A stretch of DNA of 53,315 nt from Thiomonas sp. X19 (GTDB lineage: Bacteria; Pseudomonadota; Gammaproteobacteria; Burkholderiales; Burkholderiaceae_C), in NCBI RefSeq assembly GCF_900089495.1, contig NZ_LT605203.1, positions 306,185-359,499 on the forward strand, in the 5' to 3' direction. The position numbers were made by a program, and so were the translations under genes. A model generated the notes under the pieces. It was not told where the DNA came from and did no database searches. It was given only the letters and a program-made list of their open reading frames with translations. Positions 10,454 through 44,611 of this stretch are shown here, piece after piece. Each line of letters begins with the position of its first letter. Positions within the stretch are counted from its first letter, which is position 1.

Positions 10454-11077
10454 ATGCGCACCACCGCGACGCCGCTTCGGCTGACCCGCATTTCCCTCGT
10501 GTTCGTCGCCCTGCTGGCCCTGCTGCTGTCGGCCTGCGCGAGCAATCGGTTTCCTCCCGCGCCCGGCCAGGTCGCGGCGTCCGACTACCACTACATCATC
10601 GGCCCCAGCGACACGCTGCACATCACCGTGTGGCAGAACCCTGACCTGTCCTCAACCGTGCAAGTTCGCCCCGATGGCCGCATTTCCTCGCCGCTGGTGA
10701 GCGGCATGCAGGCGGCAGGCCTGACGGCCGATCAGCTTGCCGCCAAGATCTCCAAGGACATCGCCAAGTACGTGCGCGATCCGGTGGTGACCGTGGTCGT
10801 GAGCAACTTCCATGGCGCGCTCAGCCAGCAGGTCAGCATCGTCGGCGCGGCGGCCAAGCCGCAAAGCATTCCCTACCGCGACAAAATGACCCTGCTCGAC
10901 GCCATGATCGCCGCCGGCGGCCTGAGCCCCTACGCCAACGGCAACGACGCCGTGCTCATTCGTGATGGCAAGTCCTACAGCGTGCGTCTCGACGGCCTGC
11001 TGCGCCGCGGCAACATGGCCGACAACGTGCCGCTCCTGCCGGGAGACACCATCGTCATCCCGCAAGGCTGGTTCTAA
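10454..11077 (+). CDS. polysaccharide export lipoprotein, Wza/TIGR03027-like
   Basis: 207 residues. A lipoprotein signal with lipobox LLSAC places the modified Cys at residue 28. Then comes the Poly_export domain (YIIGPSDTLHITVWQNPDLS, near 47-66) and a SLBB-like domain (VSIVGAAAKPQSIPYRDKMTLLDAMIAAGG). It ends LLPGDTIVIPQGWF, the usual end of the short exosortase-associated export protein. It would form the periplasmic/outer-membrane export channel for the EPS. First gene of a five-gene plus-strand operon; GGAG lies seven bases upstream of the ATG. Confidence 0.92.
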   Translation: MRTTATPLRLTRISLVFVALLALLLSACASNRFPPAPGQVAASDYHYIIGPSDTLHITVWQNPDLSSTVQVRPDGRISSPLVSGMQAAGLTADQLAAKISKDIAKYVRDPVVTVVVSNFHGALSQQVSIVGAAAKPQSIPYRDKMTLLDAMIAAGGLSPYANGNDAVLIRDGKSYSVRLDGLLRRGNMADNVPLLPGDTIVIPQGWF

Positions 11078-11151
11078 GCGCGCAGCAATCACGTCGCAGC
11101 CTCAAGCCAACAACCACATGCCGAAACAGGCGTGAACCCCGGGAGCCCACC

Positions 11152-12798
11152 ATGACCTTTCATCGCACGGCGCTTGCCAGCGCCATCGTTGCCGCTTGTG
11201 CTGCTTTCGGCAACTGGAACGCGGCGCAAGCGCAGATTGTTCCTGGTGCTCCTGCGATCCCGGCGATGCCAGCCATTCCCGCCGCCCCGGTCTTGCCAGC
11301 CGAGGCGGCATCGGGGGCTGCAGCCGAGAACTTGGCACCGGCGCCAACAACCTATCTGTCTCCCTCCGTGGCGGTGTTGGCGACCGGCACCAGCAATGCC
11401 AACTTCGGCACGGGCCTGAGCCCGCGTAGCGACACCGTTCTGGAGGTCGTGCCTCGCCTGGTCGTCGTCTCCGACCATGCCCACTGGCATTTGCGCGGCG
11501 ACTTCAGCCTGGACGGGCTGTACTATGCGCGCGGCACGCAAACCAACCGCGTGCTGCCCATCGGCAGCCTGAATCTGAGGTCGGAACTGGTCGATCGCTT
11601 CGTCTACCTGAATGCCGGCGTCCAGTCCCAGCAGAACATCGTGAACCCCTATGTCGGGCAGCAGACACCGGGAACATCCAATCAGTACACGTCCACCCAG
11701 TACCGCATCAATCCGTATATCGACCGACTGATCAACCCGGATTTGCGCTTCATTGCCAGCAGCGACGATATCTGGACCAAGATCAACAACAACCCGACGA
11801 ATGCGGGGGTGTTCGGCGGGCGCTACTCGGTCCAGACGGTCAGCCTGGATCAGCGCCCCCTGCCCTGGGGTTACACCCTGGTTGCACGACAGACCGACAC
11901 CACTTACACCAACCTGCCATTCGCCTCGCTGAAGGACACCTCGTTCCGCGCCATCGGCAATTACGCCTTGTCCGATCGCCTGACACTGGGCCTCATCGGC
12001 GGCTATGAAAAGGTCACGGCCTTTCTCGCCGAGGAGAAAAAGCCCATCTACGGTGTCCGCGGCTCGTGGCAACCCAATGCCCTCGGCAACATTGACGCCA
12101 CGGTGGAGCACCGTTACTTCGGCACGGGCTGGAATATCCAGGCGCTTGGCGGCTCACCCTTGCTGCGGTTCAGCATGAACTGGACGCGCGGCCCATCCAC
12201 CTACCTCTCAGCCCTGGCTGGCGGCGGCGTGCCGGGCAGCAATATCACCACCCTCCTCGATGGCATGCTGCTCTCGCAATACCCGGATCCGGTGGCGCGC
12301 GCCCAGGCTGTGCAAGGCCTGTTGACCAATTCGGGACTGCCGGCCGGGCTGTCCACCGCCAACAGCTTCTACACCTCCTCGGCCACGCTGCAAAACGCCT
12401 TGTCCATCACCGCTCTGCTGCTGCGCCAGCGCAACAGCTACGCCATCTCGCTCTACCGCACCAAGACCGAAGACCTCTTCCTGCCAGGGCAAAGCCTGCT
12501 TCAACTCGTGCAGACGTTCTCATCTGACAATATTCAGACCGGGGTAGCGTTCAATTACGGTCGCCGGTTGACCCCCCTTGACAACCTGAACGTCACATTA
12601 CTGCGCGCGGACAACTCGGGCTTTGGCTTCAATGCGGGGCTAAGCTCGCGCCAGACCAGCCTCGTCGCCCAGTTCGATCATCAGTTCTCCCCCAGAACCA
12701 CGGGGCTGCTTGGCGTACGCCGCCAGCTCCTGAGATCCACTTTGGTGGGGAACTCGAATGAGTCGGCTGTCTTTGCAGGCGTCGTCCACCGCTTCTGA
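11152..12798 (+). CDS. outer-membrane beta-barrel protein, TIGR03016-like (exosortase-system EPS clusters)
   Basis: 548 residues with a cleavable signal (cut after about AQA at residue 27), an Ala/Pro-rich stretch, then alternating aromatic/polar strands to a C-terminal Phe (AGVVHRF), typical of outer-membrane barrels. Phrases such as LSPSVAVLATGTSNANFG and YALSDRLTLGLIGGYE fit the uncharacterised barrel family found beside the TIGR03015 ATPase in XrtA clusters. It may be the outer-membrane secretion pore partner; that is inference from position. GGGAG precedes the ATG. The next gene starts 14 bases later. Confidence 0.8.
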   Translation: MTFHRTALASAIVAACAAFGNWNAAQAQIVPGAPAIPAMPAIPAAPVLPAEAASGAAAENLAPAPTTYLSPSVAVLATGTSNANFGTGLSPRSDTVLEVVPRLVVVSDHAHWHLRGDFSLDGLYYARGTQTNRVLPIGSLNLRSELVDRFVYLNAGVQSQQNIVNPYVGQQTPGTSNQYTSTQYRINPYIDRLINPDLRFIASSDDIWTKINNNPTNAGVFGGRYSVQTVSLDQRPLPWGYTLVARQTDTTYTNLPFASLKDTSFRAIGNYALSDRLTLGLIGGYEKVTAFLAEEKKPIYGVRGSWQPNALGNIDATVEHRYFGTGWNIQALGGSPLLRFSMNWTRGPSTYLSALAGGGVPGSNITTLLDGMLLSQYPDPVARAQAVQGLLTNSGLPAGLSTANSFYTSSATLQNALSITALLLRQRNSYAISLYRTKTEDLFLPGQSLLQLVQTFSSDNIQTGVAFNYGRRLTPLDNLNVTLLRADNSGFGFNAGLSSRQTSLVAQFDHQFSPRTTGLLGVRRQLLRSTLVGNSNESAVFAGVVHRF

Positions 12799-12812
12799 AC
12801 GCGAAAGCGGCC

Positions 12813-15068
12813 ATGTACGAGCAGTTCTTCGGCCTGACGGCGCCGCCGTTTCAGATCAACCCCGACCCCAGCTTCTACTTCGAGAGCAAAGGCCACGGCA
12901 GCGCGCACCAGTACCTGCGCTTCGGTGCCTTCCAGGGCGAAGGCTTCATCGTCGTCACCGGCGACATCGGTGCCGGCAAGACCACGCTGCTGCGCGCCTT
13001 GCTCGCCGAGCTCGATCCGGCGAAGGTCGTGGCGGCGCAGATCGTCAGCACCCAGCTCGAAGCCGGCGAGTTGCTCTCGGCAGTCGCCCTGGCTTTCGGC
13101 ATACCCTGCGACGGCATGAGCAAGGCCAAGCTGCTGGTCACGCTGGAGGCTTATCTCGCTTCGCTGGCCACGTCCAACCGCAGCGCCCTGCTCATCATCG
13201 ACGAAGCGCAAAACCTGGGGCCGGCGGCCATCGAGGAGTTGCGCATGCTGTCGAACTTCCAGTTCGGCAGCCGCGCCCTGCTGCAAAGCTTTCTGGTCGG
13301 CCAGCCCGAACTGCGTGACATCCTGCGCCTGCCGCAAATGGAACAACTGCGCCAGCGCGTGATCGCCAGCTGCCACCTCGGTCCGATGGACGAGGCCGAA
13401 ACGCGCGCCTATATCGAGCACCGTCTGCGCCATGTCGGCTGGAACAACCGCCCCGCGTTCGCCGACAACGCCTTTGTCGCCATCTACCACTGGTCGGGCG
13501 GTGTGCCGCGGCGCATCAATATGCTGTGCAGCCGCTTGTTGTTGTCGGCCTTTCTGGAAAGCCAGGAGACGATCGACGCTGCGCGGGTGGACCGCGTCGC
13601 CAGTGAAATCCGTGCCGAGCTCAGCGGCACGGACCCGACCACGCAACCCGACGCTGCACCTGGCAAGCCTGCGTCCGCCACGCATGCGACCTTCACCGAG
13701 CCGGCGCAAGCCACATCTGCCGCGGCGAAAGGCAAAAGCCGCCCTTCCGACGACACCAAGCCACCGAGGCATGAAGGCAATGCTGAACCGCATTTGCGCT
13801 CCGCGTCGATCGCCCCGCCCAACATCACCGCCGCCTCTGGTGCTCGCCTCGACCTGAATTTGCCATGCTCGCCTCCGCCCGAAGCTGGCGACGGCATGCC
13901 GGGGCCGCTGCTATGCGTCGCGGCGTCGCAAGCTGGGGTGGTGGTCATGAGCGCGCTGCTGCGCGCATTCGCGCAGCGCGAAGATCTGCCGCGGACGGTG
14001 CTGGTGCAGATCCTCGCGCACGATGCCATCGAGGACGCCGAGTTGGCCGCGCGCAATGCGGCCGATCTCGATCTGCCGTACACCGACTTCATCCTGGAGC
14101 CGCAGGCGCAGACGGTGGCCGGCCGCTTGGCCGAGGTCATGGCCACATTCGCCGGCCTGCTCAATCAGCAGCGGCCCAGCGCCGTCATCCTGAGTGGGGA
14201 CGAAGCCGCGATGGTGGTCTGCGCCGTCGCCGCCAGCCAGATCGGGGTTCCGGTGGTGCGGGTCGATGCCGGCTTGCGGCATGGCGACCGCGCCGCGCTA
14301 CGCGAAACCAACCGTGTGCTCATCGACCACGCCTCCAGCCTGCTCTGCGCCGGCGAACGCCCCGCCCTGGTGCGACTGCAGGCCGAAGGCATTCCTGCCA
14401 ACCGGGTGCACATGACCGGCAACCCCTGGATCGACGCCATGCACCAGGCCTTGCCGCGCAGCGTGCCCCCCGACCTGACCGTCAAGAGCCATGGCGTTCC
14501 GAGCGATATCTTGACCCATCCCAGAGGCTATGCCCTGGTCTGGCTAGAGCATGCGCTGGAGGGCGACGGCGTGAAAGTCCTGACCGAACTGGACTCGGCC
14601 CTGCGCCGCATCAGCAAGACCATCGCGCTGATCTGGCCCATGCCAGCGGCGCTGCAGGCGGCCTTGTACGCGAACCGGACAGGCGCCGAGGCCCAGTCCT
14701 CGACCATTGCCACCATGTCCTCGCTGAGCTATCTCGAAATGCTGGGCCTGATGCGCGAAGCCACCTGCGTTCTCACCGACAGCGGCTGGCTGCAGGACCA
14801 GTCGGCAGCGCTGGGCATTCCCTGCCTGACGCTGGCGACCCAAAGCGAGCGCCTGGCCTCCATCCAGGGCGGCACGAACGTCCTGGTGGGCGGCAGCATT
14901 CGCCGCATTTTTCGTGAAATGTCCGAAATACTCGATTCCGGCGATAAACCCTCGCGCCTGCCCGAACTGTGGGACGGCCACGCTGCCGAGCGCATCGCAT
15001 GGCATCTGTCGAACTGGCTGCTGGCGCGGCAGGATCATGCATTTCGCGCCTATCTGGAAAGGGCATGA
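12813..15068 (+). CDS. XrtA-type ATPase fused to a degenerate UDP-GlcNAc 2-epimerase-like domain
   Basis: 751 residues, where the ATPase family alone is about 270. Residues 1-270 are the ExeA/TIGR03015-type AAA ATPase: MYEQFFGLTAPPFQINPDP, Walker A GDIGAGKTTLL near 50, Walker B LLIIDEAQNLG near 126. A Pro/Ala/Ser/Thr-rich linker runs to about 360. The rest follows the WecB/MnaA fold: VVRVDAGLRHGDRAALRETN, the TGNPWID segment and VLTDSGWLQDQSAALGIPCL, in the right order. The usual GTRPEAIK start reads AASQAGVVV and the usual HRREN reads LEHALEG, so catalysis is doubtful; it may bind a UDP-sugar as a sensor. It continues open with no frameshift, so the fusion is real in this sequence. Operon partner of the barrel and chain-length genes. 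Confidence 0.88.
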   Translation: MYEQFFGLTAPPFQINPDPSFYFESKGHGSAHQYLRFGAFQGEGFIVVTGDIGAGKTTLLRALLAELDPAKVVAAQIVSTQLEAGELLSAVALAFGIPCDGMSKAKLLVTLEAYLASLATSNRSALLIIDEAQNLGPAAIEELRMLSNFQFGSRALLQSFLVGQPELRDILRLPQMEQLRQRVIASCHLGPMDEAETRAYIEHRLRHVGWNNRPAFADNAFVAIYHWSGGVPRRINMLCSRLLLSAFLESQETIDAARVDRVASEIRAELSGTDPTTQPDAAPGKPASATHATFTEPAQATSAAAKGKSRPSDDTKPPRHEGNAEPHLRSASIAPPNITAASGARLDLNLPCSPPPEAGDGMPGPLLCVAASQAGVVVMSALLRAFAQREDLPRTVLVQILAHDAIEDAELAARNAADLDLPYTDFILEPQAQTVAGRLAEVMATFAGLLNQQRPSAVILSGDEAAMVVCAVAASQIGVPVVRVDAGLRHGDRAALRETNRVLIDHASSLLCAGERPALVRLQAEGIPANRVHMTGNPWIDAMHQALPRSVPPDLTVKSHGVPSDILTHPRGYALVWLEHALEGDGVKVLTELDSALRRISKTIALIWPMPAALQAALYANRTGAEAQSSTIATMSSLSYLEMLGLMREATCVLTDSGWLQDQSAALGIPCLTLATQSERLASIQGGTNVLVGGSIRRIFREMSEILDSGDKPSRLPELWDGHAAERIAWHLSNWLLARQDHAFRAYLERA

Positions 15069-15196: not shown

Positions 15197-15202
15197 CACG
15201 CC

Positions 15203-16777
15203 ATGAATGATCTGCTCCGCCCCCTGTTCAATCTGCTCCCCGCCATGTGGGAAAAACGCTGGTGGGGCCTGGCCGTGGCCTGGGTCTTCGCCCTGCTCGG
15301 CGCCTTCGGCCTGGTAGTCTACAAAGAGCGCTACCTGGCCAGCGCCACCGTGTACGTCGATACCAAAACCATGTTGGGCCCGCTGCTCCAGGGCTTGACG
15401 GTGCAGCCGGACGTCAGCCAGCAAGTCGACCTGCTGGCGCGCACGCTACTGGCGCGTTCCAACCTGAACACCATCATCGACGAAAACCACCTGCTCAAGC
15501 CCGGCAGCACTGAAATTCAGCGCGAATTCCTGATCAAGCAGCTGATGAAAACCCTACACGTCAAGATTAACGGGCAGGACAATCTCTACGAAATCGATTA
15601 CGTCAGCAACGATCCACAAAAAACGCTGGGCGTGGTGCGTAGTCTGCTTAACCTGTTCGTGAGCAATGGCATCAACGCCAACCGCAAGGACTCCGAGCAG
15701 GCGGTGCGGTTCATCGACAGTCAGATCGCCATCTACGACAAAAAGCTGCGCGACGCCGAGAACAAGCTCAAGCAGTTCAAGACCGCGCATCCAGGCTATT
15801 CCGGCCAGGCCGCGACCGACTACTACACCAGGCAGGCGCAGTTGCAGGACCAGCTCACCATGCTGCAGGGCCAGCTCAGCTCGGCCGCCAGCTCGCGCAA
15901 CGCGCTGCAACGGCAACTCGCCGATGTGAAGCCTACGCTGGCGCCCTCGCTCATGCCTGGCACCAATATCGTCGTCGGCGGCCAGCCCTCCGACATCGAC
16001 CTGCGCATCGCCGCACAACGCAAACGCCTGGATGACCTGCTGCAGCGCTACACCGACGCCTACCCCGACGTCATTGCCACACGCCAGACCCTCGCCCGGC
16101 TGGAGCGCGAACGCCAGCAGCAGGAACAGCGTCTGGCCAACGCGCCGCCTGCAGCGCCCACGGTGTCACCGCAATACTCGGAGGCCAACAACCCGGTCTA
16201 CCAGCAATTGCGCATCAGCCTCGCACAGGCCGACGCCAGCGTGGCGGCACTGCAGTCGCAAATGGGCGATGTGCAAGCGCGCCTCGCGCAACTGCGCACC
16301 CAGGCCACGCAAATGCCCAAGCTCGACGAGCAGTACATCCAGCTCAACCGCGACTACAACGTGCTCAACGACAACTACCAGAAACTGGTGCAACGGCGTG
16401 AAGCGGCCATGCTGTCGCGCAACCAGGACGACAGCCGCAAGCTGGATTACTTCCGCATCGTGGATCCACCGCGTCTGGGGCCCACGGCGCTGTTTCCCCG
16501 CCGCACCTTCCTCATTGCCTTTGTGCTGATGCTCTCGGTCTTTCTCGGCGTGCTCACCACTTACCTGCTGGTGCTGCTCGTGCCCACCTATCGCAACGCC
16601 CGTCAGCTGCGTGAAAGCACCGAGCGCGCCGTGCTCGGCTCCATCTCCCTGAGCCTGACGCCGGCCGCCGCGCAGCACGAGCAGCGCAGTCGCAACCTTT
16701 TCATGCTCGGCAGCGGCGCCCTGGTGGTCGTGTTCGTGGTTTGGACTGTCATCAACACGCTGCACCTGACCCATTGA
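15203..16777 (+). CDS. EPS chain-length determinant (polysaccharide co-polymerase), TIGR03007-like
   Basis: 524 residues. An N-terminal Wzz domain has one membrane helix (GLAVAWVFALLGAFGLVVY, near 25-43). A long periplasmic coiled coil follows (about 160-395, rich in Gln, Ala, Leu, Arg). The GNVR-like segment QLNRDYNVLNDNYQKLVQRR is near 375. A second helix (TFLIAFVLMLSVFLGVLTTY) comes near 435, and an extra third hydrophobic segment lies at the very C-terminus, as in the exosortase-associated chain-length family. It would set polymer length together with the BY-kinase encoded 10 bases downstream. Confidence 0.9.
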   Translation: MNDLLRPLFNLLPAMWEKRWWGLAVAWVFALLGAFGLVVYKERYLASATVYVDTKTMLGPLLQGLTVQPDVSQQVDLLARTLLARSNLNTIIDENHLLKPGSTEIQREFLIKQLMKTLHVKINGQDNLYEIDYVSNDPQKTLGVVRSLLNLFVSNGINANRKDSEQAVRFIDSQIAIYDKKLRDAENKLKQFKTAHPGYSGQAATDYYTRQAQLQDQLTMLQGQLSSAASSRNALQRQLADVKPTLAPSLMPGTNIVVGGQPSDIDLRIAAQRKRLDDLLQRYTDAYPDVIATRQTLARLERERQQQEQRLANAPPAAPTVSPQYSEANNPVYQQLRISLAQADASVAALQSQMGDVQARLAQLRTQATQMPKLDEQYIQLNRDYNVLNDNYQKLVQRREAAMLSRNQDDSRKLDYFRIVDPPRLGPTALFPRRTFLIAFVLMLSVFLGVLTTYLLVLLVPTYRNARQLRESTERAVLGSISLSLTPAAAQHEQRSRNLFMLGSGALVVVFVVWTVINTLHLTH

Positions 16778-16787: not shown

Positions 16788-17687
16788 ATGAGCACCATCG
16801 AACAAGCCAGCAAACGCCTCGAAGAGCTCCGCAAAGCCGGGGTCGACATGCCCTGGGCGCGCGATCCCGAGGCGGCGACGCTGAGCCCGGACCAGCCCGC
16901 CGCCCTGGCCGGCGCGCTGCAGGACGTCGCCCCCGCACCGGCTCCGCTCGCAGCCCCCAAGCACCGCGTCGACATCGACTTCGCGGCGCTGCGAGACGCC
17001 TGCTATCTCGTGCCCGACGCCCCGCGCTCGCGCCTGCTCGACGAGTTCCGCGGCGTCAAGCGCCCGCTCCTGGCCAACGCCCACGGCAGCAAGACCGCCG
17101 AGCCGGTGGACCGCGGCAACCTCATCATGATCACCAGCAGTCTGCCCGGCGAGGGCAAAACCTACACGTCCATCAACCTGGCCATGAGCATGGCCATGGA
17201 GATGAACCACAGCGTGCTGCTGGTCGATGCCGACGCCACCCGCATGGCCGCGGCCCAGCGCCTGGGGCTCACCGGCCGGCGGCGCGGCCTGATCGATCTG
17301 CTGCTCGACCCCGCGCTCGACCTGTCGGAGGTGGAGCTCGCCACCAATGTGGACACGCTCACTTTCCTGCCGGTCGGCACGCAGAACGAGCGCGCCACCG
17401 AAATTTTCAGCAGCCAGGCCATGGTCGCATTTCTCAACCGCCTCGCCGCGCACCAGCAGGATCGCATCGTCATCTTCGACTGCCCCCCGTTATTGCCATC
17501 GGCCGAGGCGCGGGCCCTGGCGCCGCAAATGGGCCAGATCGTGCTGGTGGTGTGCGCCGGAAAGACCCACCAGGGTTCGGTGCAGCAGTCGCTGGCCATC
17601 CTGGAAGAAAGCCCCATCGTCATGACCCTGCTGAACCAGTCGCGCACGCCCTCGGCATCGTCGCCCTACGGCTATTACGCCTACTGA
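16788..17687 (+). CDS. BY-type tyrosine kinase, TIGR03018/CpsD-like
   Basis: 299 residues, cytoplasmic. Walker A is SSLPGEGKTYTSINLA near 118, the A' motif VLLVDADATR near 145, Walker B IVIFDCPPLLP near 227. The last eight residues are SPYGYYAY, a tyrosine cluster expected to be autophosphorylated. The membrane activator is supplied by the separate chain-length protein, as in the CapA/CapB arrangement. It should cycle phosphorylation to control polymer export and length. Last gene of the export operon; a strong hairpin follows 26 bases later. Confidence 0.9.
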   Translation: MSTIEQASKRLEELRKAGVDMPWARDPEAATLSPDQPAALAGALQDVAPAPAPLAAPKHRVDIDFAALRDACYLVPDAPRSRLLDEFRGVKRPLLANAHGSKTAEPVDRGNLIMITSSLPGEGKTYTSINLAMSMAMEMNHSVLLVDADATRMAAAQRLGLTGRRRGLIDLLLDPALDLSEVELATNVDTLTFLPVGTQNERATEIFSSQAMVAFLNRLAAHQQDRIVIFDCPPLLPSAEARALAPQMGQIVLVVCAGKTHQGSVQQSLAILEESPIVMTLLNQSRTPSASSPYGYYAY

Positions 17688-17749: not shown

Positions 17750-17823
17750 CGTCCCTCGCGCGGCGCCCACGCCAGCCGTTTCACCCTATTCGGGGGGCAC
17801 AAATCTGCGAGATGCGCTTCTAG

Positions 17824-19425
17824 GAGACTGTCGGACTTTGCGGTCTTCCGGATGAAGACGCTATCCGAGACAATTGCTGCTGCACAACCGAGAGCCCGAG
17901 CCGATGAGCCGCTTCGTCCCTGTTGACCGAGACACCGCATATCTGTTGCCACCGTCGGTGGACGAATGGCTGCCCACTGATCACTTGGCGCGCTTCGTGG
18001 TCGAAGTCATCGAGCAGCTTGATCTGGGCGATCTGGCCCGACAGTACGCAGGCCGGGGCTCGGCGGCGCACCATCCGGCGGTGCTGCTGGGCCTGCTGAT
18101 CTACGGCTACGCCAACGGCGTGCACTCCAGCCGCAAGATCGAGCGGGCGACCTACGACTCGGTGGCGTTCCGCTTTGTTGCGGCCAATACCCACCCCGAT
18201 CACGACACGCTGGCGACGTTCCGCCGCCGCTTCTTGAAGGAGGTGGAGGCACTGTTCGTGCAGGTGCTGGTTCTGGCGCGCGAGATGAAGCTGCTCAAGC
18301 TCGGACACATCGCGCTGGATGGCACCAAGATCGACGCCAACGCCAGCAAGCACAAGGCCTTGTCGTGGGCTCATGCCAACAAGATCGAGGCGCAGCTGCG
18401 CCAGGAAGTACAAACGCTGCTGGCGCTGGCAGAGAACAGCGACCGCGCGACGGTACCCGACGGCATGGATGTGCCGGCGGAGATCGCCCTGCGTGCAGAT
18501 CGCTTGAGCGCAATCGCGCAGGCCAAGGCCAAGATCGAGCAGCGCGCCAGCGAACGCCATCAGGTCGAGCAGCAGGAGTACGAGGCCAAGACCGCCAAGC
18601 GCCAAGCCCAGCGCGAGGCGGGCAAGAAGCCGCGCGGCAAGGACCCTGAGCCGCCAGAGGCCGGCCCCCGGAGCAGCGATCAGGTCAACCTCACGGATGA
18701 AGAGTCGCGCATCATGCCCGTGTCGGGTGGGGGCTTCGAGCAAAGCTACAACGCACAAGCCGGCGTGGACATCGCGACGATGATGGTGATCACCCAGCAT
18801 GTGAGCCAGGCATCCAACGACAAGCGCGAAGTTGTGCCTACGCTGCAGCAGATCCAAGCGTTACCCGCGGTGCTGGGCGAGGTGCACACGCTCATCACGG
18901 ACAACGGCTTCTTCAGCCAAGCCAACGTGATCGCGTGCAACGACGCGGGTATCGAGCCGCTGCTGGCGCTCAAGCGGGAGTCGCATCACACGCCGGTGAT
19001 GGGGCGCTTTGCACCCGATGTGCCCGAGCCCCAGACGACGGATCCGCTCGTGCAGATGGCACACCGCCTGGGCACGCAAGCAGGCCGAGCCCTGTACGGC
19101 CTGCGCAAGCAGACAGTGGAGCCGGTGTTCGGCATCATCAAGCAAGTGATGGGTTGGCGCCAGATGAGCATGCGCGGGCTGGCCAAGGCACAAGGCGAAT
19201 GGAGCTTGGTGACCATGGCTTGGAACATCAAGCGCATGCACGTCCTGCGAGCCGCGTGAGGGCAATAGTGCGCCCCGACCACGCCAAAACCGAGTCCCCA
19301 GGCCGCCCCATGTGCCCTCACAGTGTCTCGCCAACCATCGAGAGCGTTCGATCAGCGCGCCGCTGTCAAAAAAAACGCGTCGCACTGATCAATCGGATTC
19401 GCTCGGGTTCAAGTCCGACAGCCTC
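17824..19425 (+). mobile_element. complete IS1182-family insertion sequence (copy 1)
   Basis: The left end GAGACTGTCGGACTT (17824-17838) and right end AAGTCCGACAGCCTC (19411-19425) are inverted repeats matching at 14 of 15 positions. Both are flanked by CTAG (17820-17823 and 19426-19429), a palindromic 4-base target typical of several IS1182 elements. It carries one transposase gene. It sits between the EPS export operon and the megasynthase genes. The last 86 bases reappear in inverted orientation at the right window edge. Confidence 0.9.
17904..19259 (+). CDS. IS1182-family transposase
   Basis: 451 residues from the ATG at 17904; the frame is open from 17874 but only with a TTG. The N-terminal domain (MSRFVPVDRDTAYLLPPSVDEWL) and ADGT-like site (HIALDGTKIDANASKHKALSW) are typical. 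A charged, coiled insertion (about 190-260) precedes the core SYNAQAGVD, the second acidic site LITDNGF, and the C-terminal VEPVFGIIKQVMGWRQMSMRG with the catalytic Glu. Full length with no internal stop, so probably active or recently active. Confidence 0.92.
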   Translation: MSRFVPVDRDTAYLLPPSVDEWLPTDHLARFVVEVIEQLDLGDLARQYAGRGSAAHHPAVLLGLLIYGYANGVHSSRKIERATYDSVAFRFVAANTHPDHDTLATFRRRFLKEVEALFVQVLVLAREMKLLKLGHIALDGTKIDANASKHKALSWAHANKIEAQLRQEVQTLLALAENSDRATVPDGMDVPAEIALRADRLSAIAQAKAKIEQRASERHQVEQQEYEAKTAKRQAQREAGKKPRGKDPEPPEAGPRSSDQVNLTDEESRIMPVSGGGFEQSYNAQAGVDIATMMVITQHVSQASNDKREVVPTLQQIQALPAVLGEVHTLITDNGFFSQANVIACNDAGIEPLLALKRESHHTPVMGRFAPDVPEPQTTDPLVQMAHRLGTQAGRALYGLRKQTVEPVFGIIKQVMGWRQMSMRGLAKAQGEWSLVTMAWNIKRMHVLRAA

Positions 19426-19573
19426 CTAGACTCATCACCAATCGATTCCGTCGCGCCGCAGTCCTTCATTCTTGTTTTTCCTGCCTCAGCGATCCGGCTC
19501 GAACGTCGAATCCGACACAAGTTTGAGCATCTCGCACACCACGACCAAGATGCCCGGCAGCAGAGGGAATGCC

Positions 19574-26959: not shown

Positions 26960-26984
26960 GCCTCTCGCCCGGGAGCACACACTC

Positions 26985-31994
<5,010 letters not shown>

Positions 31995-32016
31995 ACAACC
32001 CCCGATGGAGGCCCCC

Positions 32017-32865
32017 ATGCTGTCCACACCCAACCGCGAACCCCATGCCCAACGCTGGTCGCGCGCGCAGGGCAATGCGCCGTACAACCCCAGGCCGCCA
32101 AGCCTCGCCGCCACGCTGCCGCCCCGCCTGCGCGCCCATGGCGTGGCCACGCTGGCTTGGCCACAGGGCCGCAATGTGCATGTGTGGCGGCTCGATCTGC
32201 GCGATATGGGGGCCGATGCCGTCGCCCTGCTCGACGCCGCCGAGACCGAACGTGCGCAGCGCTTCGTCTACGCCCACGACTGGCGGCGCTACGTGGCGGC
32301 GCATGCCTGGCTGCGGCGCATTCTCGGCGCCTATCTCGGCGTGCCGTCGCAGCAGTTGCGCTTCGCCACCGGCGCTTACGGCAAGCCGGTGCTGCTGCAA
32401 GCGCTGCGCGGGGCGGGCCAGGCGCCGCTGTGTTTCAACCTGAGCCACAGCAAGGATCTGGCGCTGATCGCCGTGACCGCAGGCATCGAAGTGGGCGTGG
32501 ACATCGAGGCCGTGCGGGGCGATCTGCCGGGGCCGGACCTGGCCGCCGGCGTGCTGAGCGCAACGGAGCTCGACGAGCTGGCGCAATGCGCCGCGCCCGA
32601 CCATGCCGACACCTTCGTCGGCTGCTGGACACGCAAGGAAGCCTGCCTGAAAGCGCTGGGCATCGGCCTGCGGCTGGAGCCGCGCGCGCTGCACGTGGGC
32701 TTGCGCACGCAGCGCCAAACTGTGCAGGTGGATGGTGCCGCGGCGCCCATCGACATCACCCCGCTGCCCGCACCCAGCGGCTATTGCGCTGCGCTCGCCG
32801 CGGTTGGGGGTTTCGCGCACATCGAGCCGCAGGACGCCGCCCATCAGCCGGAGTGGCGAACTTGA
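32017..32865 (+). CDS. Sfp-type 4'-phosphopantetheinyl transferase
   Basis: 282 residues. FATGAYGKPVL near 117, FNLSHSKDLALIAVT near 140, VGVDIEAVR near 158 with the Mg-binding Asp and Glu, and FVGCWTRKEACLKALGIGL near 202 with the WxxKEA motif. These are the three Sfp motifs. It would activate the four carrier domains of the two synthases by transferring phosphopantetheine from CoA. I prefer the ATG at 32017 because GGAGG lies five bases upstream; an in-frame ATG at 32005 is also possible. It follows the NRPS stop by 22 bases. Confidence 0.92.
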   Translation: MLSTPNREPHAQRWSRAQGNAPYNPRPPSLAATLPPRLRAHGVATLAWPQGRNVHVWRLDLRDMGADAVALLDAAETERAQRFVYAHDWRRYVAAHAWLRRILGAYLGVPSQQLRFATGAYGKPVLLQALRGAGQAPLCFNLSHSKDLALIAVTAGIEVGVDIEAVRGDLPGPDLAAGVLSATELDELAQCAAPDHADTFVGCWTRKEACLKALGIGLRLEPRALHVGLRTQRQTVQVDGAAAPIDITPLPAPSGYCAALAAVGGFAHIEPQDAAHQPEWRT

Positions 32866-33692
32866 CCCCACTGCGATTCTTGCGCGACGCGCGCGAGCTG
32901 TTCGCGCTGCATCTTGAGCCGAGCGCCGACGCCGCGGCGCGCGACCACGCCGTGCTGCTGTGCAACCCCTTCGGCCAGGAGGCCATTCGCGCCCACCGCC
33001 TGTACCGCGTGCTCGGCGACCGTCTGACGGCCGCCGGCTTCCACGTGTTGCGCTTCGACTATTACGGCAGCGGCGATTCGGCCGGCGATGACGCCGACTT
33101 CGACCTCGACGGCGCCATCGCCGACACCGTGGCCGCCGGCAACTTGCTGCTGCAACGCAGCCGCGCCGGAAAGTTGTCGTGCCTGGGACTGAGGCTGGGC
33201 GGCAACATCGCGGCACTGGCTTCAAGTCATTGGGCCGAGGCGCTGGACCAACTGCTGCTGTTCGAGCCCGTGGCCGAAGGCGGCAGCCATTTGCTGGCCT
33301 TGCAGCAGTCCAACGCCGACACCATGGCCGGCATGTTCGGCTCGCGCTGGCGCATCGACCCCGCGCTGCGCCAATTCAACCTGCCCGACCCCGGCGGCGA
33401 AGCGCTGGGCTTTGCGCTGACGCCGGCCTGCAAGGCGCAAATTGCCGAGCGCATCGGCCTGCACCAACCCTGGCCCGGCCGCGCCCGCAACACCATCATC
33501 CTCACGCCGCAAGTCGATGCGTTCACCGTCTGGGCGGCCAAGCGCGACCTCCTGGCCTCACCCCGCTTGCACGTCGCTCCCTCCGACTCCGACATCGACT
33601 GGGCCACCAACAGCGCGTTGAACACCGCCATCGTTCCCCGGGCCTGGGTGGACCATGCGCTCGGCGCCCTGACGGAAGCCGTCCATGCATGA
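32862..33692 (+). CDS. alpha/beta hydrolase, resembles exosortase-associated hydrolase 2
   Basis: About 276 residues. An alpha/beta hydrolase start (LLCNPFGQEAIRAHRLYRVL), then FDYYGSGDSAGD, the elbow region CLGLRLGGNIAAL and EPVAEGGSHL. The elbow shows G-L-R-L-G with Arg where Ser is usual, as I recall for the TIGR03101-like family seen with XrtA clusters. The start is probably TTG at 32862, overlapping the previous stop as TTGA, with CGGAG eight bases upstream; GTG at 32853 is an alternative. By position it may act with the megasynthases (release, or editing), or with the glycan. Function not known. Confidence 0.7.
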   Translation: MTPLRFLRDARELFALHLEPSADAAARDHAVLLCNPFGQEAIRAHRLYRVLGDRLTAAGFHVLRFDYYGSGDSAGDDADFDLDGAIADTVAAGNLLLQRSRAGKLSCLGLRLGGNIAALASSHWAEALDQLLLFEPVAEGGSHLLALQQSNADTMAGMFGSRWRIDPALRQFNLPDPGGEALGFALTPACKAQIAERIGLHQPWPGRARNTIILTPQVDAFTVWAAKRDLLASPRLHVAPSDSDIDWATNSALNTAIVPRAWVDHALGALTEAVHA

Positions 33693-34620
33693 AGCCACCC
33701 TCGTCTTCGGCCCCGACCAGGGGCTGATCGGCACCCTGACCCTGCCCGCCGCGCGCGCAGACGCTGCCGCCCCATGCGGCATGGTGCTGTTCAACGCCGG
33801 CGTGGTGCACCGCATCGGGCCGCACCGCATCAACGTGAAACTCGCGCGCGAACTGGCGCGCCACGGCATTCCCACCATCCGTTTCGACCTGCACGGCATC
33901 GGCGACAGCCTGGGGGCGGACGGCAAACTGAGCTACCAGCAGCAGGTGGTGCGCGATTTGCAGGCCGCGATGGACACGCTGCAGGACGCCGCGAGCGTGC
34001 AGCACTTCGCCCTGCTCGGCTTCTGCTCCGGTGCGCTGCCCAGCTACTGGGCCGCGCAGCAAGATGCGCGCGTGCGCCACATCATCCTGTACGACGCCTT
34101 CTCCCTGCAAACCGGCAAGAGCCGGAGGCGCTTTTTCGTCGTTCGTCTACGCAATCATGGTTTCGATCCGGTCGCCATCGCGCTGTATCTGCGACGTGCC
34201 GCGAGTTTGCTGGGATCGCTGCCGCAGTGGCTGCAAAGCAAGCTCCGACGCTTGCACGTCGAAGCCGCTCCCCCCGTCGACGACCGACCCTCAAAAGCTC
34301 AGCTTGCACAGGGCTTCGCGCAATTGGCGCAAAAGGGCGTGCATGTCTCGGTGCTGCAGTCGGGCGCTGACTTCAGCAACGTCAACTACGCGGCGCAAAT
34401 CGTCGAGGCCTTTGGCCTGGATGATGCGCCCATCCCCAATCTGCGCACGGCTTGGCTGGCGCCCATTGACCACGTCATGACCTCGATCAACGCCCAGCGC
34501 GAGTTCATGGACTGGATTTGTGCCGACTTGCTGGAGCGGCAAACCGTTGTCGTGGATCAGTTGCCGAACCACGTGCATCATTCCCCGCCCACGCCGGAAC
34601 CTGCACATGCGCCCGATTAG
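33685..34620 (+). CDS. alpha/beta hydrolase, resembles exosortase-associated hydrolase 1
   Basis: 311 residues, overlapping the previous gene by eight bases. VLFNAGVVHRIGPHRINVKLAREL near 33, FDLHGIGDSLG near 70, and the nucleophile elbow LLGFCSGALPSY near 112, where Cys replaces the usual Ser. The late His region could be APIDHVMTS near 262. TIGR03100-like proteins in XrtA loci show a similar Cys elbow, from memory. As an in-trans acyl-thioester hydrolase or acyltransferase it could release the product that the NRPS cannot release itself; that is inference. Confidence 0.72.
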   Translation: MHEATLVFGPDQGLIGTLTLPAARADAAAPCGMVLFNAGVVHRIGPHRINVKLARELARHGIPTIRFDLHGIGDSLGADGKLSYQQQVVRDLQAAMDTLQDAASVQHFALLGFCSGALPSYWAAQQDARVRHIILYDAFSLQTGKSRRRFFVVRLRNHGFDPVAIALYLRRAASLLGSLPQWLQSKLRRLHVEAAPPVDDRPSKAQLAQGFAQLAQKGVHVSVLQSGADFSNVNYAAQIVEAFGLDDAPIPNLRTAWLAPIDHVMTSINAQREFMDWICADLLERQTVVVDQLPNHVHHSPPTPEPAHAPD

Positions 34621-34701
34621 GTTTGAGGCGCAGCATCCAGCCCACTGGCATTCACCCAAAAACCGGTCATCGACCACCATCAAGAGGATGGATGCGCCAT
34701 C

Positions 34702-35496
34702 GTGTTCGACTTGAGACTCTGGCTTGAATCCCTGCTTGCGCCCGTGGCCCTTATCGCTTGGTGCCTGGTCCTGTTAACGGCGATGGCCTGGCGCATGCCC
34801 ATTCCGAAGCTCATGCGTTTCGGCGCCGCCGGCGTGCTGCTGGTTTATCTCGCGCTATCCATGCCGCTGACCGTCGATCCTGCTTTTTCCGCTTTGCAAG
34901 ACTGGGCCCGGCGCGACGCCCGCTGCGGGCAGCCGCCCGCCGGCAGTGTGATCATCGTGCTGGCAGGTGGCTTCGAACATGCCCCCGACCGGCTCACCGA
35001 TTTCAACGCCCTGCAAGGCGACGGCCTGCGCCGCACCCTCGCAGCGGTGGCGCTCGCGCGACGAACACCACACAGTGTTTTGCTGTTTACCGGGGGGGGC
35101 AACACGCGCTTTAGCGAGGCTGCCGTGATGGGCGCACTCGCCGAAGCCCTGGGAATTGCGGCAAACCGCATCGAACTGGAGCAGCGCTCTCACACAACCT
35201 ACGAGAGCGCCATCAACACCCGCGCCATGCTGGCCCGTGACCCGCCGGCCGCGCGCTACCTCGTGACATCGGCCTATCACATGCCGCGCTCTTACAGGGC
35301 CTTTCGCGACGCGGGGCAAAAGGTCTGTGCATGGCCAGCCGGCTTTCTCAGCACGCACGCCCCGCTGCTTGACCGACTCATCCCGCAACTCGGTGGCCTG
35401 GAGAAATCATCCCTGTTGTTGCATGAATATTTAGGCATGATTTTTTACAGCTTGGTGAAGTTCCGCCAATTGCCGTTCGTTCAAACACATTCCTGA
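34702..35496 (+). CDS. DUF218/YdcF-like (ElyC-like) membrane protein
   Basis: 264 residues. Two N-terminal membrane helices (about 8-30 and 40-55) come before a periplasmic or cytoplasmic DUF218 domain: GSVIIVLAGGFEHAPDR near 81, LLFTGGGNTRFSEAAVM near 125, ELEQRSHTTYESAINTR near 156 and LVTSAYHMPRSYRAFR near 187. The family is linked to envelope polysaccharide and lipid-carrier metabolism (ElyC, SanA). The start is a GTG with only a weak ribosome site (AGAGGA, distant). It lies 81 bases after the hydrolase. Confidence 0.82.
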   Translation: MFDLRLWLESLLAPVALIAWCLVLLTAMAWRMPIPKLMRFGAAGVLLVYLALSMPLTVDPAFSALQDWARRDARCGQPPAGSVIIVLAGGFEHAPDRLTDFNALQGDGLRRTLAAVALARRTPHSVLLFTGGGNTRFSEAAVMGALAEALGIAANRIELEQRSHTTYESAINTRAMLARDPPAARYLVTSAYHMPRSYRAFRDAGQKVCAWPAGFLSTHAPLLDRLIPQLGGLEKSSLLLHEYLGMIFYSLVKFRQLPFVQTHS

Positions 35497-35572
35497 CCAG
35501 CACCGGAACATGGGGTGACTTTTCAATCGTATTGCAGCTAGGCTGAAAAATTGCGCCGCGCTTGTCAAACCT

Positions 35573-36811
35573 ATGTCCAGTTCCATGCCATTTCGCAAGA
35601 CCTTTGGGGGCTCTGTGGAGACCAATCGTGTTCACACCCTGATTCCTCTGCGCATCCTGATGGTGGTGGATGGGCAGTATCCCGCCACCGGCGGCGCCGA
35701 AATGCAGGCGCGGCTGCTGTGCACGGCCTTTGCACAGCAGGGCCACGAGGTGCGGGTTCTGGCGCCACGGCTGCAGGCATCGCAAGCGAAATTTGAAGTG
35801 ATCGACGGCATCGCGGTGCGGCGCCTGAGTTATCCCCGCGTCAGAGGCCTGGGCTCCATCCTGCTCGATCTGCGTTTCGCCGCTTACTTGTTGCGCCATC
35901 GCCGCGAATTCGACGCCATCCACATCCACATGGTGCGCAATCTGGCCGGGGCGGCTGGCTGGGTGCGTCGGCTGGTGGGCATACCCATGGTGGCAAAAGT
36001 TTCCGGGGCTGACGAATTTCGCGGCGGCATTCTCGACCCGGCGCTGATGCACCGCCCCATCCACCGCCTGCTCAACGCCGGCGCCAAGCGCATCGACGCC
36101 TTCCAGTGCATCAGCCAGCACACGCGCAGGGCCATGCTCGAAGCCGGCTACCCGGCTGCCAGGATGCACCTCATCCCCAACGCGGTGGATTGCGCGCGCT
36201 TCGCCTGCAACCGTACCGACGCGCCCTTGCAACGCGTGGTGTTCGTCGGCCGGCATGTGCCGGTGAAAGGCATCGACGTGCTGTTACGCGCCTGGGCGCT
36301 GGTGCGGCGCCCGGCGGAGCTGCGCCTGGTGCTGGCCGGCAACGGGCCCAAGCACGACCAACTGCGGGCGCTGGCTCGCGAGTTGGGCGTGCACGACAGC
36401 GTGGACTTCCCCGGCGCGGTGCGCCATGTTCCCGAAATTCTGGCTGACGCCGGCCTGTATGTGCAGGCCTCGCACCAGGAAGGCCTGCCCAACGCGGTGC
36501 TCGAAGCCATGGCCTCTGGGCTGGCGGTGGTGGCCACGCGCGTGAGCGGCCACGAAGACGTGGTGGACCATGGCTGCACGGGGCTGCTGGTGCCGCCGAA
36601 CGACCCTGCGGCGCTGGCTGCCGCGATGCAGGCCCTGCTCGACGACTCGGGCCTGCGCCTGCGTATGGGCCGTGCTGGGCGCGCGGCCATCGAACGCACA
36701 TACTGCGCCGAGATCGTCACCGCCTCCCTGCTGCGTCTGTATCGCGGCGCCCACCCGACTGCGCCGGCCACCGAAACGCGGCCTCTGCACACCGATGGCC
36801 ACCGGCACTGA
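35573..36811 (+). CDS. GT4-family glycosyltransferase
   Basis: Up to 412 residues, GT-B fold. PATGGAEMQARLLCTAFAQQ near 38 and VSGADEFRGGI mark the N-terminal domain. VVFVGRHVPVKGIDVLLRAW near 224, LYVQASHQEGLPNAVLEAMASG near 302 (the EX7E motif) and GCTGLLVPPNDP near 340 mark the donor-binding domain. It would add a sugar to the lipid-linked repeat. Start is uncertain: ATG at 35573 or 35585 have no good ribosome site, and GTG at 35615 after GGGGGC may be real. A 76-base gap precedes it. Confidence 0.85.
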   Translation: MSSSMPFRKTFGGSVETNRVHTLIPLRILMVVDGQYPATGGAEMQARLLCTAFAQQGHEVRVLAPRLQASQAKFEVIDGIAVRRLSYPRVRGLGSILLDLRFAAYLLRHRREFDAIHIHMVRNLAGAAGWVRRLVGIPMVAKVSGADEFRGGILDPALMHRPIHRLLNAGAKRIDAFQCISQHTRRAMLEAGYPAARMHLIPNAVDCARFACNRTDAPLQRVVFVGRHVPVKGIDVLLRAWALVRRPAELRLVLAGNGPKHDQLRALARELGVHDSVDFPGAVRHVPEILADAGLYVQASHQEGLPNAVLEAMASGLAVVATRVSGHEDVVDHGCTGLLVPPNDPAALAAAMQALLDDSGLRLRMGRAGRAAIERTYCAEIVTASLLRLYRGAHPTAPATETRPLHTDGHRH

Positions 36812-36845
36812 CGGCATCAGCTCCGCGCCGAAGGAGCAGGGCGGC

Positions 36846-38315
36846 ATGCTCATGCGCCTGCTGCGGCATACGTCGAATTATTCCATCGGCACGCTGCTCA
36901 TTACGCTGGCCAGCATCATCTCGTTTCCGATTTTCACGCGCATTTTCACGGTGGCGGAATACGGCGTGCTCGGCCTGGTCAACGTCACGCTCGGCTTTCT
37001 CGTTGGCGTGGGCAAGATGGGGCTGCAAAAGTCGATCGTGCGCTTTTATGCCGAAATCGAAGGCGGCAAGCGTGATGGAGACAAGGTCGAGCTGTTCTCC
37101 ACGGTGCTGTTCAGCATGATCGCCGTGGGTGCCATCATTGCACTGCTGAGCGCGCTGATTTTCCTGGCCTTGCCCAACTCCTGGTGGAGTCACACGGGAG
37201 CGCAATACCTCATCGCCCTTGCCGCCCCGCTCATCCTGTTTCGCGTGGTCGACAGTGCCATGCTCAACCTGGTGAACGCCGAACAGCGCAGTGGCCTCTA
37301 CAGCTTGTTCACGGTGGTGCGCAAATACATCGGCCTTGGGCTGGTGCTGCTGGTGCTGTTTTTCATAGCACGCAATCTCTACGGTTTTTTCATCGGCACC
37401 ATGATCGCCGAGGCTCTGGCCCTGATTTTCATCGTCGGCTACTACGCGCGACAGCGCCTGTTCGACATCAAGCGTGTTTCGCGCCCGCTATTCGTCGCGA
37501 TGCTCACGTTCGGCCTGCCGCTACTTGCTAGCGAGCTGTCATACATGCTGCTGAGCATGGGCGGGCGTTACATCATCAACTACCAGCTCGGACCTCAGCC
37601 GCTGGGCTCGTATTCGGCGGCGTACAACTTTTCCGAATACCTCCAGGGCGTGCTGACGGCCTCGTTCGCGCAAGCGGTCATTCCCATGTATCTGCGCCAG
37701 TGGGAGCAGCAGGGCCGGGAGAAAACGGTGGCCTTCCTACAGCAGGCGCTGCGCTATTACCTGGTGCTGGCGCTACCCATCCTGGCCGGCATGGCCGCGG
37801 TGGGTCCGGATCTGCTGCGCCTTCTGGCCTCCAACAAATACGAGGTTTCCACATCGCTGTTTGCGCTCATCGTCGGCGGCATGCTGGTGGCCGGCGGCAC
37901 GCCGATCTTCAGCGCCGGCATCTACATCAACAAACTCACCAAGGTGGTGATGTATTCCGTGCTGGCGGCCGCGGCCTTGAACATCGCGCTCAGCGCGCTG
38001 CTGGTGCGACCCTATGGCATCGAGGGCGCCGCCGTTGCCACGCTGGCGAGCTATCTGCTGTACACCGCCGCCACGGCCTACTACGGCCGGCGCGCCGTGT
38101 ACGTGCCCATGCCCTGGTGGGATCTGGCCAAGTTCTCGATACTCGCCTTGCTGATGTATGGCGTGATCACGCAGATCCACCTGCCCAGTCTTGCGCTTCG
38201 CATTCCGCTGCAAATTCTGGTGGGCGTCGTGCTCTACGGCTTGCTGCTGCTGGTGAGCGACAAACCCATCCGTGGCCTCGCGGTCAAGATGCTGGACCGC
38301 CTGCGTTCACGCTAA
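36846..38315 (+). CDS. polysaccharide flippase (Wzx-like, MOP superfamily)
   Basis: 489 residues with about 12-14 membrane helices. It starts MLMRLLRHTSNYSIGTLLITLASIIS and has the typical TRIFTVAEYGVLGLVN turn, LRQWEQQGREK in a cytoplasmic loop, and YGIEGAAVATLASYLLYT near the end. I chose the ATG at 36846 because GAAGGAG lies nine bases upstream; an in-frame ATG at 36795 overlaps the glycosyltransferase gene. It should flip the lipid-linked oligosaccharide, possibly carrying the NRPS/PKS-derived group, across the inner membrane. No Wzy polymerase was found. Confidence 0.88.
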   Translation: MLMRLLRHTSNYSIGTLLITLASIISFPIFTRIFTVAEYGVLGLVNVTLGFLVGVGKMGLQKSIVRFYAEIEGGKRDGDKVELFSTVLFSMIAVGAIIALLSALIFLALPNSWWSHTGAQYLIALAAPLILFRVVDSAMLNLVNAEQRSGLYSLFTVVRKYIGLGLVLLVLFFIARNLYGFFIGTMIAEALALIFIVGYYARQRLFDIKRVSRPLFVAMLTFGLPLLASELSYMLLSMGGRYIINYQLGPQPLGSYSAAYNFSEYLQGVLTASFAQAVIPMYLRQWEQQGREKTVAFLQQALRYYLVLALPILAGMAAVGPDLLRLLASNKYEVSTSLFALIVGGMLVAGGTPIFSAGIYINKLTKVVMYSVLAAAALNIALSALLVRPYGIEGAAVATLASYLLYTAATAYYGRRAVYVPMPWWDLAKFSILALLMYGVITQIHLPSLALRIPLQILVGVVLYGLLLLVSDKPIRGLAVKMLDRLRSR

Positions 38316-44609: not shown

Positions 44610-44611
44610 GC

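Follow-up and report, generated by a model that had tools for sequence, protein, structure and literature searches.

A Thiomonas polysaccharide export locus joined to a nonribosomal peptide/polyketide assembly line: conserved linkage and a possible route to a peptide-bearing glycan

The 53,315-nucleotide stretch of the Thiomonas sp. X19 genome analysed here (contig NZ_LT605203.1, positions 306,185 to 359,499 of the forward strand; called the window below, and the frame for all coordinates) carries at 10454-38315 a set of exopolysaccharide (EPS) export genes which is followed on the same strand by a hybrid assembly line of nonribosomal peptide synthetase (NRPS) and polyketide synthase (PKS) modules, a phosphopantetheinyl transferase (PPTase), and homologues of the two “exosortase A system-associated hydrolases”. 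An assembly line of this type occurs together with EPS export genes in most of the related genomes that possess it, and it is probably coupled functionally to the EPS pathway, judging from the conservation of gene linkage. The complete reading to which the evidence leads, and which we regard as evenly balanced between being right and being wrong, is that of a polysaccharide locus with its own NRPS/PKS line supplying an acyl-peptide that hydrolase 1 would move onto the glycan; covalent attachment of the peptide, taken by itself, is put a little below an even chance. An earlier note on this DNA had described the gene content, the gene order and the + strand orientation of the block, all of which are borne out by the list of reading frames and by the profile matches of the window proteins. 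The features of the block are as follows, the starts of the PPTase, hydrolase 2 and the flippase having been chosen within longer frames.

10348-10392, + strand: promoter-like element, composed of an imperfect inverted repeat CCCCCTGATAGAGGGTG, 22 nucleotides and TAGACT (from pattern comparison with relatives)
10454-11077, + strand: Wza-like export protein, TIGR03027 (211 bits, cut-off 180)
11152-12798, + strand: outer-membrane protein, TIGR03016 (155 bits, cut-off 90.85)
12813-15068, + strand: TIGR03015 ATPase fused to a UDP-GlcNAc 2-epimerase domain (370 bits, cut-off 324.5)
15203-16777, + strand: chain length determinant, TIGR03007 (417 bits, cut-off 278.85)
16788-17687, + strand: tyrosine autokinase, TIGR03018-like (229.9 bits against a cut-off of 230.65)
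17779-17805, + strand: left part of the split synthase promoter, TTTCACCCTATTCGGGGGGCACAAATC, identical in the relatives G002 and L002
17824-19425, + strand: insertion sequence (IS) of the IS1182 family, with a CTAG target duplication at 17820-17823 and 19426-19429
17874-19259, + strand: IS1182 transposase (profile match)
19427-19432, + strand: TAGACT box of the split synthase promoter, retained via the target duplication
19472-26959, + strand: hybrid synthase with adenylation (A, Val-like), thiolation (T), ketosynthase (KS), acyltransferase (AT, malonyl-type motif), acyl carrier protein (ACP) and aminotransferase (AMT) domains in that order; probable ATG at 19574
26985-31994, + strand: NRPS with domains C-A(Ser-like)-T-C-T, C being condensation, by domain matches; the last module lacks an A domain
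32005-32865, + strand: Sfp-type PPTase (profile match)
32859-33692, + strand: “hydrolase 2” homologue of alpha/beta-hydrolase fold, related to TIGR03101, with Arg112 at the nucleophile position and Trp248 at the position matching His by motif
33685-34620, + strand: “hydrolase 1” homologue, an alpha/beta hydrolase related to TIGR03100, with Cys114, His263 and the candidate acid Asp137
34702-35496, + strand: DUF218 protein (profile match)
35573-36811, + strand: GT4 glycosyltransferase (profile match)
36786-38315, + strand: MOP-type flippase (11 hydrophobic segments by a simple scan)

For the evaluation of the linkage, 299 genomes of the family were searched with the aminotransferase part of the synthase as the query (E <= 1e-100). 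AMT-type synthases were found in 16 of these genomes, from 9 genera, the source genome being counted. When 53-87 kb around each of the 16 synthase loci were compared with all window proteins, at least two EPS export genes were found near the synthase in 12 genomes (G000, G034, G242, G007, G018, G051, G167, G246, G131, G292, G217 and G287), which represent 6 of the 9 genera. The binomial tail for 12 of 16 at a chance level of 5%, which is an assumption, is 4e-13 by genome and 1e-6 by genus, and at 5.3% it is 7e-13 and 2e-6, the genus figures being the fairer because the genomes are related. The export genes adjoining the synthase in G018, G217 and G287 are of another kind (27-39% identity, with a Wzc-type fusion in G217), so that the synthase accompanies EPS export even where the export genes differ, and in G242 the same modules stand in rearranged order on one 64-kb contig. 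Homologues of hydrolases 2 and 1 lie within the synthase stretch in 13 of the 16 genomes. The type is also abundant outside the family sample: at least 7904 of the 7999 scored candidates listed from a wider database are AMT-type synthases, and the best 120 of them, at 74-100% identity and mostly with the same domain set, bear names that include Thiomonas, Variovorax, Xenophilus, Methylibium, Piscinibacter and Hydrogenophaga, the gene neighbourhoods described here being those of the 16 synthase genomes.

The strongest argument for a single pathway comes from one genus, g49 (G051, G167 and G246), in which the parts of the system have come to lie far apart. The synthase of these genomes is inside the export operon, and the PPTase, hydrolase 2 and hydrolase 1 form a remote set, about 450 kb away in G051, about 480 kb away in G246 and on another contig in G167. 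In the remote set these three genes are followed by GT2, deacetylase, Wzy, GT4, deacetylase, GT4 and DUF218 genes (families called in G051), and the GT2, the Wzy, both GT4 proteins, one deacetylase and the DUF218 protein of G051 are 52-74% identical to the products of genes that follow hydrolase 1 in T. delicata. The synthase thus appears to go with export, and the PPTase and hydrolases with glycan assembly, even when the two sets are separated, and it is because of this cross-linkage that a single pathway is suggested. A search with the PPTase matched 13 of the 299 genomes; among these matches G248 and G117 have no other gene of the system within 20 kb, and G222 and G178 have NRPS/PKS genes with no hydrolases close by.

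In loci of the XrtA type, hydrolases 1 and 2 are expected together with a small set of genes for an acyl ligase, an ACP and a decarboxylase, and the earlier note had proposed that the assembly line takes the place of that set. The TIGR03099 decarboxylase (E <= 1e-100) was found in none of the 16 synthase genomes and in all 6 control genomes with a standard hydrolase 2, the informative figure being 0/16 since the controls were picked for their hydrolase 2. A hydrolase 2 scoring over the curated cut-off is likewise found in 0/16 synthase genomes, against 70/283 of the others (Fisher p 0.028), and a hydrolase 2 below the cut-off in 16/16 against 19/283 (p 3e-17). All six control loci have a single A-like ligase close by, and in five of them, G077 being the exception, the window query matched a hydrolase 1; G176, the sole control locus identified fully by models, has TIGR03098, TIGR03099, an ACP, a GNAT protein, TIGR03101 and TIGR03100.

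The class to which the locus belongs follows from the same kind of comparison. TIGR03027, TIGR03016, TIGR03015, TIGR03007 and TIGR03013 are all above their curated cut-offs in the window. The hydrolases score only 79 and 74 bits against cut-offs of 168 (TIGR03100) and 203 (TIGR03101), and, among the window proteins, the two A domains of the locus reach 217 and 224 bits with the TIGR03098 acyl ligase model, whose cut-off is 592. No exosortase (TIGR03109, PF09721) was matched at E <= 0.001 in the 4.67-Mb source genome, for which the designation “exosortase locus” was rejected, and PF09721 was matched in none of the 4 genomes of the genus; among 17 genomes (the 16 synthase genomes and G160) 9 possess an exosortase, which in every case lies on a different contig or at a distance of more than 300 kb. 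The locus is therefore best called a variant of the XrtA-type EPS loci and not classified among XrtA loci in the strict sense, because neither the exosortase nor the decarboxylase was found in the genome.

The earlier note had placed an IS at 17824-19425, which is correct, the element sitting between two copies of CTAG, and had raised the possibility that the block, being split by the IS, is now two independent loci. For the ancestor this does not hold. The junction is uninterrupted, with a single CTAG, in two relatives represented by metagenome-assembled contigs (L001/G002 and L002), which are about 90-97% identical over the export proteins, and T. delicata DSM 16361 (L004/G001/G034), of the same genus, shows this gene order too, a single cupin-like gene standing between the kinase and the synthase. 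Because these IS-less relatives keep the halves joined, as a check of gene order proposed earlier now establishes, the split is recent and local; together with the linkage in 6 of 9 synthase genera this upholds the view that the EPS and NRPS/PKS halves belong together, and what survives of the two-locus suggestion is that the IS splits the synthase promoter in this strain. In two genera, candidate cupin/JmjC-like oxygenases adjoin the synthase or hydrolase 1 (L050 17034-17999 in T. delicata and L127 8765-9634 in G243); such a protein is a possible tailoring enzyme, and no gene of this kind was found in the window.

The promoters provide a further connection between the halves. Upstream of the export operon in the window stand CCCCCTGATAGAGGGTG, 22 nucleotides and TAGACT, and the synthase of G002, L002 and T. 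delicata is preceded by CACCC-N-GGGG, 23 nucleotides and TAGACT. The IS cuts the synthase promoter of the window between the conserved block and the TAGACT box, at CTAG, so that the upstream block is now 1.6 kb away. A search expression for this layout matches exactly two sites each in G002 and T. delicata, before the export operon and before the synthase; the synthase site in L002, where the export site has one mismatch; and the export site only in the window. It gave 0 matches in nine other stretches and in 40 simulated windows. What counts here is that one layout precedes both operons inside one genome, as in G002 and T. delicata and, before the IS arrived, in this strain. The layout differs from the motif pair described for PEP-CTERM genes in Haft 2006 (PMC1569441). 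The possibility that the conserved block before the synthase is a sigma-54 promoter was discarded, as the -12 element is not conserved between the window, G002 and L002. Neither a generic promoter scan of the window, which gave about as many matches as shuffled sequences, nor a terminator scan (13 matches against 8.0, standard deviation 3.0, in shuffles) was used, and Rfam and tRNA scans of the window gave no matches.

The domains of the synthase proteins were assigned from Pfam matches and motifs, as A-T-KS-AT-ACP-AMT in the first protein and C-A-T-C-T in the second. Both C domains have HHxxxDG, the AT has GHSVG and HAFH, motifs which we take to be malonyl-type, and a class III aminotransferase, whose nearest relative in the PDB is mycosubtilin synthase A (6kfm, E 7e-126), is fused after the ACP. 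No terminal release domain, whether a thioesterase or a reductase, was found among the Pfam matches or by motif in the assembly-line proteins of the window. Specificity codes were read at nine of the ten positions in GrsA numbering, with position 278 read by eye, and were compared with the codes that we assume for Val (DAFWIGGTFK-like), Ser (DVWHLSLIDK-like) and Gly (DILQLGLIWK-like). Among 18 loci, the A domain of the first protein is Val-like in 10 (D-A-L-W-L-G-G-T-F with at most one change), reads implausibly in G073 and is unreadable in G243, G035, G292, G007, G131 and G257. That of the second protein is Ser-like in three (the window, G002 and T. delicata); a Gly-like A domain occurs in 11 others, and four are unreadable (G217, G287, G073 and G018). 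The terminal C-T unit is without an A domain in the window and 10 other loci; it is split over two frames in G018, and in G093 a Gly-like A domain stands at its position. The expected product, as predicted from these domains, is a Val-like residue extended with malonate and aminated at the beta-keto group to give a 3,4-diamino acid, followed by Ser or Gly. The first block of the “beta-amino-acid/Ser unit” suggested earlier requires revision, since it reads as a beta,gamma-diamino acid and not as a simple beta-amino acid.

The NCBIfam entries of the two hydrolases are hypothetical equivalogs. In hydrolase 1, Cys114 (in GxCSG), His263 and Asp137 are invariant in 54/54 aligned sequences, and Asp137 can be inferred to be the catalytic acid. 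In hydrolase 2 the nucleophile position is occupied by Arg in 51/52 sequences and by Lys in 1/52, and 52/52 have Trp where the motif (IDH against IDW) would place His. Across 17 synthase-type loci and 3 controls over the cut-off, the Cys of hydrolase 1 is present in 20/20 and the Arg of hydrolase 2 in 19/20 (Gly in G007). Both residues are kept in these three controls. In predicted models of the two proteins (mean pLDDT 87.8 and 92.0), Cys114 and Arg112 occupy the strand-turn-helix nucleophile site of the fold, and the fold matches are ordinary alpha/beta hydrolases, those of hydrolase 1 including the thioesterase DcsB. By these residues “hydrolase 2” has the look of a pseudoenzyme, and “hydrolase 1” appears to be Cys-based, a chemistry that suits acyl transfer no less than hydrolysis.

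The pathway which these observations suggest would begin with the arming of the carrier domains by the PPTase. The first protein would load a Val-like amino acid, extend it with malonate and transaminate the beta-keto group to give a beta,gamma-diamino acyl chain, and the second would add Ser (Gly-like in most readable relatives) and pass the chain to the terminal C-T unit. With no thioesterase in the line, hydrolase 1 would take the chain onto its Cys, aided by the catalytically dead hydrolase 2, and transfer it to the lipid-linked glycan, at an amino or hydroxyl group; the glycan would then be flipped and exported by the Wza/Wzc-like machinery.

Several observations weigh against this account or the evidence offered for it. 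The earlier note had taken NRPS/PKS genes lying routinely away from EPS genes as evidence against a joint system, and such a separation is seen in 3 of the 16 genomes (G073, G243 and G035), which have no EPS export gene near the synthase within the stretches read; the contig in G035 ends 1.4 kb from the locus, the neighbours in G073 include a GT2 gene and a two-component pair, and those in G243 a cupin. A fourth genome, G093, has a single EPS gene, a homologue of the ATPase-epimerase about 27 kb off. The promoter expression was built after the sites had been seen, it matches only the export operon in G242, and the layout was not seen in genus g49; a stricter pattern has 1 match in the source genome, against 2 for a reversed control pattern, so that a single match is no proof. 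Within the 20 kb read around each control locus, a window-type EPS gene is present in only 1/6 (G116, a priming transferase), and the idea that the assembly line occupies the place of the ligase, ACP and decarboxylase is supported as mutual exclusion between genomes, which is no proof of a swap at one place. Sub-cut-off hydrolase 2 is also present in 19 genomes without the synthase; in the 12 of these that were read (G151, G023, G207 and G197, which are partial or near the cut-off, and G014, G076 and G212 being left out), NRPS genes lie beside the pair in 3 (G257, G284 and G121) and there are none in 9. The A domain of the first protein in G242 reads otherwise than Val-like. In the strain itself, no orthologues of the GT2, Wzy, two GT4 (GT4a and GT4b) and cupin genes of T. 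delicata were found in the window, and the split synthase promoter may leave the assembly line silent. The confidence placed in the coupling of the assembly line to the EPS pathway was lowered slightly on account of the reversed promoter control and the control loci, and it remains high.

The main rival explanation, a substantial possibility that nevertheless falls well below an even chance, is that the line makes a free secreted small peptide (a signal, surfactant or metal binder) beside the EPS, that this peptide is never attached, and that hydrolase 1 is a trans-acting thioesterase. The three synthase loci without EPS export genes would then need no special account, a Cys-type thioesterase would also explain hydrolase 1, which has DcsB among its fold matches, and a promoter layout common to both operons would be expected from co-regulation no less than from co-assembly. 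Against this rival, no peptide exporter or resistance gene, the flippase aside, was seen in 19472-38315; in the three g49 genomes, whose synthase lies elsewhere, the PPTase and the two hydrolases are still found among GT2/Wzy/GT4 genes; the same hydrolase pair goes with a ligase, an ACP and a decarboxylase in the fully identified control locus; and for plain hydrolysis there would be no evident need of hydrolase 2.

A second alternative concerns this strain alone and is compatible with the other readings: that its locus is decaying or rewired, the line being silent or driven by the IS, which may be so but would not be our first expectation. The position of the IS at the CTAG of the TAGACT box, and the distance that now separates the conserved upstream block from the box, speak for such a history, and the transposase has a 100% identical copy elsewhere in the genome, which suggests recent movement. 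Orthologues of the GT2, Wzy, GT4a and GT4b of T. delicata were found neither in the window nor near the locus nor around the four over-cut-off Wzy-like genes of the genome, the search for GT2 and Wzy taking in the flanks of the window (two sub-cut-off Wzy-like places being left out); about 11 kb beyond the downstream end of the window there is one partial match of deacetylase type (44% over 99 aa). The synthase frames, on the other hand, are open throughout, and because G002, which has no IS, carries the same short set of genes behind hydrolase 1, the missing GT2 and Wzy are not a matter of decay in this strain alone. The activity of the assembly line in this strain is uncertain. The remaining explanation, that an unrelated NRPS/PKS cluster is a chance neighbour of the EPS locus, draws on the variability of both kinds of loci and on the 4 of 16 loci that are not or barely linked, and is very improbable in view of a linkage that spans 12 genomes, 6 genera, differing gene orders and two kinds of export genes, and of the mutual exclusion with TIGR03099.

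Glycan genes also reach to the left of the block that the earlier note had delimited, in the interval 5118-10545.

5118-6257, - strand: GT-1-type glycosyltransferase (profile match)
6224-7303, - strand: TviC-like UDP-sugar 4-epimerase (422 bits to NF011728, below the curated cut-off of 760)
7374-8654, - strand: TviB-like UDP-sugar 6-dehydrogenase (TIGR03026 385 bits, cut-off 190; TviB model NF011729 501 bits, cut-off 592)
8725-10308 (reading frame listed as 8725-10545), - strand: TIGR03013 XrtA-system glycosyl-1-phosphate transferase, the priming transferase, divergent from the export operon (476 bits, cut-off 393)

Among these divergent genes, 3079-4197 encodes a protein without a Pfam match, and 4219-5118, which adjoins the glycosyltransferase, encodes one with a single N-terminal hydrophobic segment and a weak right-handed beta-helix match. 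The left edge of the window holds an ISAzo13-family transposase (1-1083, cut by the edge) and an IS5-family transposase fragment (1543-2142). Downstream of the locus lie, at 40933-47562 on the - strand, a large complex-I-like protein with 30/49-kDa-like parts and a proton-antiporter-type membrane protein, and, at 49375-51435, a gamma-glutamyltranspeptidase (488 bits). The “ATPase fusion” of the earlier description is indeed a fusion, and can now be specified as a TIGR03015 ATPase joined to a UDP-GlcNAc 2-epimerase domain; tblastn matches span both parts in T. delicata, g49, G007, G131, G292 and G093, and in G242 they fall into two pieces that overlap by a few bases.

If the peptide is carried on the polymer, the locus would represent a route for writing nonribosomal chemistry into the slime layer, with positive charge, metal binding or adhesion as possible consequences. 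The same reading, if true, would point to what the two “exosortase A system-associated hydrolases” do, and would mean that one kind of pathway can employ either the small ligase/ACP/decarboxylase set or a complete assembly line. The generalization that there is a conserved class of EPS bearing an amide- or ester-linked nonribosomal/polyketide peptide, made by a thioesterase-less line with a Cys-type hydrolase 1 and a dead hydrolase 2, and that the XrtA-type pair would add the simpler group made by the ligase, ACP and decarboxylase, is offered tentatively, as a proposal that may well prove wrong. No earlier description of such an NRPS/PKS-EPS locus was found in the open-licence papers searched; the Thiomonas genome paper (PMC2829063) mentions an eps operon, and the words polyketide and nonribosomal are absent from the text searched.

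Among known systems, the XrtA/PEP-CTERM EPS loci are similar in that their curated models match the export, chain-length and priming genes found here, and very nearly the kinase, and in that the hydrolase 2/1 pair is present; they differ in that the present genome has no exosortase match, that no TIGR03099 protein is detected at the threshold given above and that the hydrolases fall far under the cut-offs. Compared with the XrtA-associated set of TIGR03098, TIGR03099, ACP, TIGR03100 and TIGR03101, the locus has NRPS/PKS genes and a PPTase in the position at which one would look for the ligase, ACP and decarboxylase. A further setting of the hydrolase pair is found in G276 (L166 6974-11597), one of the nine sub-cut-off genomes without NRPS genes beside the pair, where models identify a small ACP, an 856-aa protein with weak beta-galactosidase-like matches, and fused hydrolases; G099, G161 and G200 resemble it by gene layout only, and no ACP-sized frame is listed beside the pair in G161 and G200. 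This setting (an ACP, a protein of about 840-900 aa, and fused or adjacent hydrolases) resembles the present one in having the same pair beside a carrier protein, and differs in that no NRPS/PKS or export gene was matched in the 20-35 kb read. The mycosubtilin/iturin-type synthases share the KS-AT-ACP-AMT arrangement, from which amination of a beta-keto thioester is expected; the iturin starter unit is a fatty acyl ligase, whereas the starter here is an amino-acid A domain, which would lead to a beta,gamma-diamino acid, and the surrounding locus is an EPS locus. The Dlt system, finally, carries out the D-alanylation of cell-wall polymers by a carrier-bound aminoacyl group, and it differs from the present locus in consisting of a single ligase and a carrier, with no modular assembly line; it resembles the pathway proposed here in that a carrier-bound aminoacyl group decorates an envelope polymer.

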